Source of the DNA: Plebeiibacterium marinum
GTDB taxonomy: Bacteria; Bacteroidota; Bacteroidia; Bacteroidales; Marinilabiliaceae
NCBI RefSeq assembly: GCF_026013615.1
Contig: NZ_JAPDPI010000002.1
Location: 124,001-188,000, forward strand
Direction: 5' to 3'
DNA length: 64,000 nt
Part shown: positions 42,193-49,072 of the stretch, in pieces
Numbering within the stretch: the stretch's first letter is position 1
How the letters are laid out: each line of letters begins with the position of its first letter
Notes under the pieces: model-generated
What the model was told of the DNA's origin: nothing
What the model saw: the letters and a program-made list of their open reading frames with translations, nothing else
The model's database searches: none
Made by a program: the position numbers and the translations under genes

Positions 42193-42819
42193 TTACTTTC
42201 GGGATAAAGCCAGGGCCAATCCTAAAACTGATAACACAGCTACTTTACTTTTATGGGTAATATTCCAAAATCGGGGACTATTTAAATAACCCGACAACCT
42301 ACCTGACAAGATGGCAACCAGGCTAAATATAACCAAGGTCTGCAACATAAAAGTTGCCCCTAAAACAATCATCTGCCAGACATATGGAACTTCACTCTCT
42401 CTAACAAATTGCGGTAACAAAGCAATAAAGAACAATGACACCTTCGGATTCAACACATTCATCAGTAACCCTTTGCGAAACAACTTCCAAAAACCTGATT
42501 GAACCTCGTCTACTTGTTCAAACTTTACAATTTGTCTTTTTTCTTTATAAGATTTATAGGCCAGAAAAAACAAATATCCAGCACCCAAATATTTTATAAC
42601 AGAAAAGACCAACGCTGATTTCTGGATGATTATTGAGATTCCAGTTGCTGCGGCAATAGTATGAACCATTACTCCGGCACACAAACCAACCGATACAGCA
42701 ATCCCTGTTTTGTGACCTTTAGTAACGCTTTCTGTTAATACGAATATATTATCAGGACCTGGCATAATTGTCAGCAAAACTGCTGCGCCTAAAAAAGAAA
42801 GTATTACCTGAGCCTCCAT
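42193..42819 (-). CDS. LysE family amino-acid translocator in trp operon
   Basis: A 208-residue integral membrane protein with about six hydrophobic segments and the family N-terminal motif TIMPGPDNIFVL. LysE/RhtB proteins export amino acids. It starts 1 nt after the trpB stop and ends 28 nt before trpA, so it is firmly within the operon. Export of tryptophan, an aromatic intermediate or another amino acid is plausible, but substrate specificity cannot be read. Confidence 0.9.
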   Translation of the reverse strand: MEAQVILSFLGAAVLLTIMPGPDNIFVLTESVTKGHKTGIAVSVGLCAGVMVHTIAAATGISIIIQKSALVFSVIKYLGAGYLFFLAYKSYKEKRQIVKFEQVDEVQSGFWKLFRKGLLMNVLNPKVSLFFIALLPQFVRESEVPYVWQMIVLGATFMLQTLVIFSLVAILSGRLSGYLNSPRFWNITHKSKVAVLSVLGLALALSRK

Positions 42820-47196: not shown

Positions 47197-48612
47197 TTAA
47201 AATTCGGCGGCCAATTCAACTGCCTTTTTTAAAGCTCCCAATTTATTGTTTACCTCTGCCAATTCACTTTCAGGAACAGACTCTGAAACAACACCGGCGC
47301 CAGCCTGGTAGAAAAGGGTATTGTTTTTACATAAGAAAGACCTAATCATAATAGCCTGGTTAAAAGAACCATCAAGACCAAGCATCCCTATACATCCACC
47401 ATAATAACCTCTATTCTGATTCTCGTACTTATCAATAAGCTCCATGGCCATAAATTTTGGTGCTCCCGATAAAGTACCTGCAGGAAATGTATCCGCCATA
47501 ACCCGGCATGTATTTGAGCTCTCAAGCAGCTGTCCCCGTACATCGGAAACCAAATGGAGCACATGTGAATAATACTGTACTTCCTTATAAGTTTTTACTT
47601 TTACCTTATCACAGTTTCTGCTTAAATCGTTGCGGGCCAAATCTACCAACATTACATGCTCTGCATTCTCCTTTGGATCGTTACTCAACTTTTCGGCCAA
47701 CTCACGGTCCTTAATATCATCACCTGTTCTTTTAAAAGTTCCTGCTATAGGATTTATGGTTGCTTCTCCTTTTTCAATCACTAACTGAGCCTCAGGTGAC
47801 GAACCTAATATTTTATAACTTCCATAATCAAAAAAGAACAAATAGGGTGATGGATTAATATTTCGTAAAGCCCTGTATACATTGAACTCATCTCCTGAAT
47901 ATTTTCTCTTAAATTGACGTGCCAGCACAATTTGAAAAACATCACCCTTAAAACAATGCTCCTTGCCTTTTTTCACCATCTCAACAAACTCATCATCTGT
48001 TATATTTGACGACTCCTCACTATCAGGTTGAAATTTAAATGCAGGAACAGTTCTGTTATAAAGAAGATTTAAGATTTCATCCATCTTACTTTCCTCTCCC
48101 TCAGGGCGGTTTTCGATAAGATTAAGCTGGTTACTAAAATGGTTAAAAGCCAGAATATACCTATAATAGTTATACCTCATTTCAGGTATCTCATATTCTT
48201 CTGATACTTTATTCTCAAATTTTATTGATTCAAAATGCTGAACTGCATCATAAGATGAATACCCAAACAATCCATTTACATTTACCAAGGGATCAGACTC
48301 AACCACGTCAAAGCTTTTGATATAACCATCCAACTGAGCTGGAACATCTAAAACCGAAGTTTCTTTTCCCGGAATTATCTCTCCTCCCGGAAACACCATG
48401 CTTACCTGTCCCTTATTTACTTTAAACTCCGATAAGGGCTCAAAACAAATAAACGATTGCGAATTGTTATTACCGTGGTAATCTGAACTTTCCAGCAAAA
48501 TACTATTAGGATATAAATCCCTAATTTTCAAATAAATACTTACCGGAGTGATAATATCAGCAATATTGGCCGGTACTCTTTTTGCTGAACTTACTATTTT
48601 TATCTTATCCAT
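47197..48612 (-). CDS. trpE: Anthranilate synthase component I
   Basis: Converts chorismate to anthranilate, first committed step to tryptophan. The feedback-inhibition motif LLESS is present near 39-43. Conserved chorismate-binding segments include GSSPEAQLV, IAGTFKRT, and DLARNDLSR, with AGTLSGAPKFMAMELID toward the C-terminus. The 471 residues are normal. It is the first structural gene after the trp attenuator, so expression should respond both to allosteric tryptophan and to Trp-tRNA charging. Confidence 0.97.
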   Translation of the reverse strand: MDKIKIVSSAKRVPANIADIITPVSIYLKIRDLYPNSILLESSDYHGNNNSQSFICFEPLSEFKVNKGQVSMVFPGGEIIPGKETSVLDVPAQLDGYIKSFDVVESDPLVNVNGLFGYSSYDAVQHFESIKFENKVSEEYEIPEMRYNYYRYILAFNHFSNQLNLIENRPEGEESKMDEILNLLYNRTVPAFKFQPDSEESSNITDDEFVEMVKKGKEHCFKGDVFQIVLARQFKRKYSGDEFNVYRALRNINPSPYLFFFDYGSYKILGSSPEAQLVIEKGEATINPIAGTFKRTGDDIKDRELAEKLSNDPKENAEHVMLVDLARNDLSRNCDKVKVKTYKEVQYYSHVLHLVSDVRGQLLESSNTCRVMADTFPAGTLSGAPKFMAMELIDKYENQNRGYYGGCIGMLGLDGSFNQAIMIRSFLCKNNTLFYQAGAGVVSESVPESELAEVNNKLGALKKAVELAAEF

Positions 48613-48649: not shown

Positions 48650-48688
48650 AAAAAAAATGGCTTGCCGAGGTTTTCGGCAAGCCATTTT
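48650..48688 (-). terminator. trp attenuator terminator hairpin
   Basis: A perfect 15-bp stem pairs 48654-48668 with 48674-48688 around a 5-nt loop, followed on the minus strand by eight T (48657-48650). It lies between the trpL leader peptide and trpE. AACCTC at 48720-48725 (plus strand) is complementary to GAGGTT at 48667-48672 in the loop side of this hairpin. Pairing there would block the terminator, giving an antiterminator of 6 bp. Confidence 0.9.
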
Positions 48689-48727
48689 AAATTAAAATAT
48701 TTTATAATAGCGTAGCGTTAACCTCTT

Positions 48728-48769
48728 CTAGTTAAGAAAAAGCCAATGCCACCACCATGTATTTTTCAT
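48728..48769 (-). CDS. trpL: trp operon leader peptide
   Basis: A 13-codon frame encodes MKNTWWWHWLFLN followed by TAG. Four of 13 codons are UGG, three consecutive. It precedes an antiterminator-capable segment and a strong terminator, all upstream of trpE and on its strand. This is the classical arrangement for ribosome-mediated attenuation: stalling at Trp codons when charged tRNA-Trp is scarce would favour antitermination. The chance of such a Trp cluster in this exact place is very small. Confidence 0.93.
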   Translation of the reverse strand: MKNTWWWHWLFLN

Positions 48770-48806
48770 TAATCTTGTCATTTTGCTTATGATTTATTAG
48801 CAGTTG

Positions 48807-48837
48807 CAAATTTTAGGATATTTTTTGAAATATCAAA
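48807..48837 (-). promoter_or_regulatory. Possible trp operon promoter
   Basis: On the minus strand TTTG (48837-48834), an 18-bp spacer and TAAAATTTG (48815-48807) resemble the phylum promoter, but the -7 element has one extra base against TAnnTTTG. It would place the transcript start about 30 nt before trpL. Confidence 0.35.
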
Positions 48838-48880: not shown

Positions 48881-49072
48881 TTAAGCAGAGATACTACAGA
48901 AAATTTCACCAATAAGATGATCGTAGTATGATCCAAATTCCTTTTTTACCCATTTGTGGAGCGCTTCTAACTCTTCAACGCTTAACCAGGTAAAAGATTT
49001 TACTAACTCTTTTCTAAATAAATGAGGGTTTTTCGCTACCCCCAAAAGCATTTTCTTCTGGTGTTCCAACAT
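48881..49072 (-). CDS. Small hypothetical protein upstream of trp operon
   Basis: A 63-residue protein, probably helical: MLEHQKKMLLGVAKNP, LFRKELVKSFTWLSVEELE and LHKWVKKEFGSYYDHL form amphipathic stretches with a WLS-EEL turn. It has no signal peptide or membrane segment. It points the same way as trpE, with its stop about 110 nt before trpL. The regular amphipathic pattern suggests a real protein. I do not recognise a named family, and any tie to tryptophan control is unsupported. Confidence 0.55.
   Translation of the reverse strand: MLEHQKKMLLGVAKNPHLFRKELVKSFTWLSVEELEALHKWVKKEFGSYYDHLIGEIFCSISA

Follow-up and report, generated by a model that had tools for sequence, protein, structure and literature searches.

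A predicted loop-capture tryptophan attenuator ahead of the trp operon of Plebeiibacterium marinum and other Bacteroidota

In the trp attenuator of Escherichia coli (trpL), region 2 forms the antiterminator together with the 5' arm of the terminator. Attenuators of amino-acid operons were reportedly predicted in some Bacteroidetes/Chlorobi too, by Vitreschak et al. in 2004. The sections of PMC9723704 (2021) considered here describe strong clues of leader-peptide attenuation ahead of amino-acid operons in Flavobacterium psychrophilum, the elements located before pheA and hisG being conserved in the family without Rfam hits. As far as these sections go, the F. psychrophilum leaders belong to amino-acid operons and share their proposed mechanism with the element described below. 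The words trp and tryptophan are absent from the main text, and its attenuation section gives no antiterminator geometry, unlike what could be drawn for the present element. Besides, short ORFs reminiscent of leader peptides occur in the 5' UTRs of Bacteroides thetaiotaomicron (passages of PMC7366714), and the passages retrieved from PMC4833913 describe leader genes close to the structural gene and mention no Bacteroidetes attenuator. Beyond PMC9723704 and PMC7366714, no account of amino-acid operons of the phylum being controlled by leader-peptide attenuation was noticed within the literature searched, most subscription journals lying outside it. The original prediction at this locus, made from the DNA letters, held that attenuation appears much less described in Bacteroidota; this is only partly right, given the strong clues already published for F. 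psychrophilum (PMC9723704).

The window, i.e., the whole stretch of 64,000 nt of Plebeiibacterium marinum (NZ_JAPDPI010000002.1) that was analysed and whose positions serve as coordinates, carries on its minus strand a trp operon in the order trpE-trpG-trpD-trpC-trpF-trpB-(LysE-type transporter)-trpA. The names of trpE and of the transporter were assigned via Pfam, those of the other genes by reading the ORFs. The first gene, trpE (47197-48612, minus strand), encodes component I of anthranilate synthase (PF00425, PF04715). The LysE-type transporter gene (PF01810) is inserted between trpB and trpA at 42193-42819, where a tryptophan exporter would fit. A 63-amino-acid ORF without Pfam match is found further upstream of the leader, on the minus strand (48881-49072).

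All parts of the leader lie on the minus strand. The leader peptide ORF, MTRLMKNTWWWHWLFLN, occupies 48728-48781 and consists of 17 codons followed by the stop codon TAG (48730-48728). It contains the control codons Trp-Trp-Trp-His-Trp (48743-48757), the Trp codons being located at 48757-48749 and 48745-48743. According to the minimum-energy fold and to a swap test, an anti-antiterminator hairpin (region 1:2, 48707-48758) would be formed by a 5' strand at 48758-48735, whose base contains the Trp codons, and a 3' strand at 48729-48707. Region 2, GAGGUU (48720-48725), comes directly past the leader stop codon and constitutes the 5' half of the antiterminator, the 3' half being region 3, AACCUC (48667-48672), which takes in the loop of the terminator and extends two bases into the 3' arm; both were delineated from the sequence and from co-evolution. 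The antiterminator of the window thus comprises 6 bp, GAGGTT (48725-48720) with AACCTC (48672-48667), and a spacer separates region 2 from the terminator hairpin. The intrinsic terminator (48650-48688), recognised from its hairpin and covariation, has a 15-bp stem (48688-48654), a 5-nt loop and a U-run encoded by eight T at 48657-48650. Hence, the W-W-W-H-W codons, the AACCTC/GAGGTT pair and the 15-bp hairpin with U8 are all present as originally described. The leader folds at -47.8 kcal/mol against a shuffle mean of -22.8 (n = 200; z -7.3), none of the shuffles being as good. E. coli trpL (Rfam Trp_leader) shares with this locus a short ORF with Trp codons, a hairpin 1:2, an antiterminator and an intrinsic terminator before trpE. 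Instead of the 5' arm, region 2 of the window is complementary to the loop and the upper end of the 3' arm; moreover, the window element has no Rfam match, and no Shine-Dalgarno-like motif was found before its leader start. The mechanism of attenuation is known, and the present element is a modest structural variant of it.

The leader start had been placed at 48769, which is an internal ATG, the conserved start being 12 nt further upstream at 48781. Among 41 aligned elements from the window and its relatives, an ATG was found 7-9 codons ahead of the first Trp codon in 40, the exception being G006, while an ATG at the place first proposed, four codons ahead of the first Trp codon, occurred in just 8. 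Because the conserved start corresponds to 48781, the peptide reads as the 17 codons given above, and the element extends past the edge drawn at 48769. Further upstream, promoter-like boxes were recognised through a post hoc pattern at 48807-48836 (minus strand), as TTG (48836-48834) and TAAAATTTG (48815-48807). This looser promoter pattern, which was written after the sequences had been inspected, was present in 23 of the 41 elements, against a mean of 0.9 and a maximum of 5 in 300 shuffles. The strict Bacteroidetes -7 box, TANNTTTG, was found in 5/41 elements, against a shuffle mean of 2.6 and a maximum of 7. The transcript would accordingly begin near 48800, ahead of the leader ORF. A transcript starting downstream of 48728, named at the outset as incompatible with attenuation, is argued against by the upstream promoter-like boxes, this argument being drawn from sequence rather than from a 5'-end map. 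The spacer of the boxes also holds a dyad, GATATTTCAAAAAATATC (48817-48834), which is kept in several members of the genus and is possibly an operator, or else a chance product of A+T-rich DNA.

No motif of the listed Shine-Dalgarno-like set was detected ahead of the 41 start codons tested, which fits the earlier remark on initiation independent of such sites. The element opens to direct experiment the question of how a control that depends on prompt initiation and on a coupled ribosome can work when initiation is not based on Shine-Dalgarno sites. In relatives (e.g., L032 and L039), region 2 is often GGGAGGTGA, which combines a Shine-Dalgarno-like sequence with the stop codon, and the terminator loop is CTCC, resembling an anti-Shine-Dalgarno sequence.

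Conservation was assessed in 59 relatives besides the window genome, 45 of which have a trpE ortholog at E <= 1e-140. One of them (G030) was left out, its contig having 44 bases upstream of trpE, so that the upstream regions of 44 relatives plus the window gave 45 regions. A Trp-rich leader followed by a terminator was found in 40 of these 45 regions. As G042 has two, the 40 positive genomes provided the 41 elements mentioned above; in this genome, two complete Trp attenuators stand in tandem ahead of a single trpE (L036). In four of the five exceptions, trpE comes directly after trpB (G038, G052, G056) or trpA (G051) and so does not head the operon; the fifth (G029) shows the remnant of a terminator at the margin of the upstream piece. 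Double changes were observed in 11 of the 12 consensus pairs of the terminator. The RNAalifold consensus recovered the terminator only, the alternative stems being absent from it. Together with the co-evolution of the antiterminator and of the anti-antiterminator, these results give a favourable outcome to the check proposed beforehand, in which related genomes were to be compared for conserved Trp codons and stem covariation.

The pairing of region 2 with the terminator loop was then scored for each element, own partners being compared with permuted partners. In the 41 elements, which form the set where the pairing pattern was first noticed, own partners scored 15.8 against 11.6 for permuted partners (sd 0.38; 0/10,000 permutations). 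For 41 further loci, many of them from one family, with L181 omitted and L067 included though scored on the wrong strand, the values were 16.8 and 13.8, respectively (sd 0.37; 0/10,000). The permutations ignore kinship, which is expected to make the comparison conservative, as near kin still pair when swapped. The pairing is illustrated by GGGAATT/AATTCCC (G031), GGGAAAT/ATTTCCC (G018), GAAGT/ACTTC (G002) and TGCTGTGTTAAG/CTTAACACAGCA (G057), and it is weak in four Sphingobacterium loci (scores 10 to 12.6). Duplex energies calculated for the first set led to the same picture for region 2 and the loop (z -10.1, 0/5000 permutations), and in the swap test of hairpin 1:2 own pairs were also better (z -4.8, 0/5000). 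As controls, a start-codon segment (z -0.6) and a spacer segment (z +2.6) paired no better with their own loop. A classical antiterminator involving the 5' arm was considered for the trp element and rejected, since region 2 showed no co-evolution with this arm (own -7.68 vs permuted -8.01, z +1.4). Because the loop pairing co-evolves whereas the 5'-arm pairing does not, the antiterminator is taken to be the loop pairing, and these sequence comparisons indicate that the partner of region 2 is the loop of the terminator along with the upper part of its 3' arm. The antiterminator-capable pair originally noticed is supported by this co-evolution, its geometry being unusual. It would represent another way of building an antiterminator.

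The element is most probably a ribosome-mediated transcription attenuator sensing charged tRNA-Trp (probability of about 0.9). This reading, already put forward at first sight of the sequence, is supported by the component parts and their conservation, by the co-evolution of the pairings and by the folds predicted, with the start amended and the geometry being unusual. In the proposed mechanism, RNA polymerase would start just ahead of the leader ORF, which the ribosome would translate without a Shine-Dalgarno site. When Trp is ample, the ribosome would reach the stop codon and cover region 2 (GAGGUU), the terminator would form and transcription would stop before trpE. When Trp is scarce, the ribosome would stall on the Trp codons and melt hairpin 1:2; the freed region 2 would pair with the loop of the terminator and the upper end of its 3' arm as they emerge, keeping the terminator open and allowing transcription of the operon. 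In the absence of translation, region 2 would be held by hairpin 1:2 and the terminator would form. The scheme would imply that the timing is co-transcriptional, that loop capture excludes the terminator and that the operon responds to Trp. Regarding exclusion, a steric argument suggests that a hairpin could not close once the 4-5 bases of its loop are tied up in a helix, which would make loop capture exclusive. As judged from its organisation, the attenuator probably limits the synthesis of these enzymes to Trp shortage, and a response to Trp is predicted. For a phylum that is abundant in the gut, in soil and in the sea, this provides a concrete and testable circuit of amino-acid control.

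The attenuation logic is reproduced by folding with a masked ribosome, within the limits of the model. Transcripts ending four bases into the 3' arm were folded for 81 elements (L067 being left out), the masks being set by hand from the ribosome footprint. For the window, the predicted probability of the antiterminator was 1.00 with the ribosome stalled at Trp, 0.00 with the ribosome at the stop codon, where the mask covers region 2 by design, and 0.00 without ribosome. It exceeded 0.5 in 72/81 elements in the stalled state, in 4/81 at the stop codon (same mask) and in 31/81 without ribosome, 16 of these 31 coming from a single family (f30). In nine of the 81 elements the value did not exceed 0.5 even with a stalled ribosome, and three of these nine are among the eight genus mates of the window (G002, G005 and G006). 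When the full-length window leader was folded at equilibrium, the terminator prevailed in every state (0.96), which means that the switch must be kinetic.

The contact between region 2 and the loop could also be read as a pseudoknot or kissing interaction that tunes the hairpin or pausing, antitermination being then the work either of the ribosome itself or of a different pairing. Such a role would be in line with a pairing aimed at the loop while region 2 and the 5' arm lack co-evolution (z +1.4), with the presence of 7-nt loops that could pair whole (G018, G031), and with the fact that the window antiterminator overlaps the stem by 2 bases, leaving 13 of the 15 terminator pairs intact if both coexist. 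However, the pairing reaches into the 3' arm in many elements, that of the window included, where it competes with the stem, and a ribosome at the stop codon keeps it at or below 0.5 in 77/81 elements, as would fit an antiterminator blocked under ample Trp. A mere tuning contact is thus considered unlikely, and the attenuator with an antiterminator made by loop capture is preferred.

Two further explanations were considered. The trp genes of other phyla are controlled by a T-box, a TRAP-like protein or the Trp repressor, and one of these devices might act on the operon leader instead; this is very improbable here, given that no Rfam family, T-box and Trp_leader included, was matched in the window at gathering scores, and that a search for the Trp_repressor family gave no match in the genome. 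Alternatively, the hairpin might simply terminate the transcript of a gene lying upstream, and the Trp-rich ORF might be a product of chance; a 63-amino-acid ORF on the same strand, without Pfam match, indeed ends at 48881. This hardly credible scenario was ruled out by conservation, as the Trp-rich leader and the terminator recur ahead of trp operons, whichever trp gene comes first, both in relatives and more widely in the phylum.

A covariance model, R1, was built from the 41 elements, and it can find such unannotated leaders. Run on 392 genomes of the phylum, it matched 279 at E 0.01, the weak matches including bare terminators and not being counted as attenuators. Among the best matches in other genomes, 29 loci were read: a WWW leader was present in all 29, partly by selection since the leader belongs to R1, and the downstream gene, which lies outside R1, was trpE in 28 cases and trpB in one. 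The leader precedes trpE in a Prolixibacteraceae MAG, two Saprospiraceae MAGs, Phaeodactylibacter luteus, a Flavobacteriia MAG and a Bacteroides sp. MAG, trpB in two Paludibacter MAGs and trpD in four Sphingobacterium loci. Hence, the element tracks whichever trp gene comes first. A pattern scan of genome contigs was too loose, returning 120 stretches, many from other phyla; when R1 was applied to 80 of them, nine loci were matched at E <= 1e-10, all titled Bacteroidota. From 25 loci picked by Bacteroidota-like titles, 14 had a WWW leader and a terminator and 11 did not; among the 14, L160 ends before a trp gene is reached, and the sole evidence of one in L101 is a weak TrpB-like match (31% identity). 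Within the literature searched, which is incomplete, the loop-capture geometry and the wide occurrence of the trp element may be new.

In the upstream regions that were read, other leader peptides were found in the same genome, namely MTNLVHHHGHHYNLP before hisG, MTHFAFFYSFYFYFFGFSSQKEVGL before pheA, MTNNFSFILIINIILLVITRQE before ilvD and MVYNLFHTITTTTTSTFTPWGV before thrA. Their ORFs are rich in His for hisG (L174), in Phe/Tyr for pheA (L216), in Ile/Leu/Val for ilvD (L243) and in Thr/Ile for thrA (L225). Among nine genomes of the genus, that of the window included, such leaders were found before pheA in 8, ilvD in 9, thrA in 7 and hisG in 6. Like the trp element, the pheA and ilvD leaders of the window genome are rich in the amino acid that the pathway makes (or in related ones) and are followed by a terminator before the gene; the pairings of region 2 found for such leaders, in contrast, involve the 5' arm. 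For pheA, the terminator is present in 9/9 genus genomes, and in all nine region 2 repeats the sequence of the 3' arm, so that 6-8 bp can form with the 5' arm. For ilvD, a pairing of 6-7 bp with the 5' arm was found in 7/9 genomes, another hairpin having been chosen by the script in the remaining two, among them the window genome. Two antiterminator designs thus seem to coexist in one genome, loop capture for trp and 5'-arm capture for pheA. The terminator scan found none for the Thr-rich thrA leader (L225), and the his leaders showed no clear pairing of region 2 with an arm or the loop. Taken jointly, the odds are about even that trp operons of Bacteroidota widely use a loop-capture attenuator, that pheA in the same genome uses the classical 5'-arm design, and that attenuation free of Shine-Dalgarno sites is general for amino-acid operons (trp, his, phe, ilv and perhaps thr). 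A search of the window genome with R1 returned 31 matches at E 1, trp included, and among five further loci that were read only the his leader, L174:1501-1626 (G000:C151:14978-15103), was attenuator-like.
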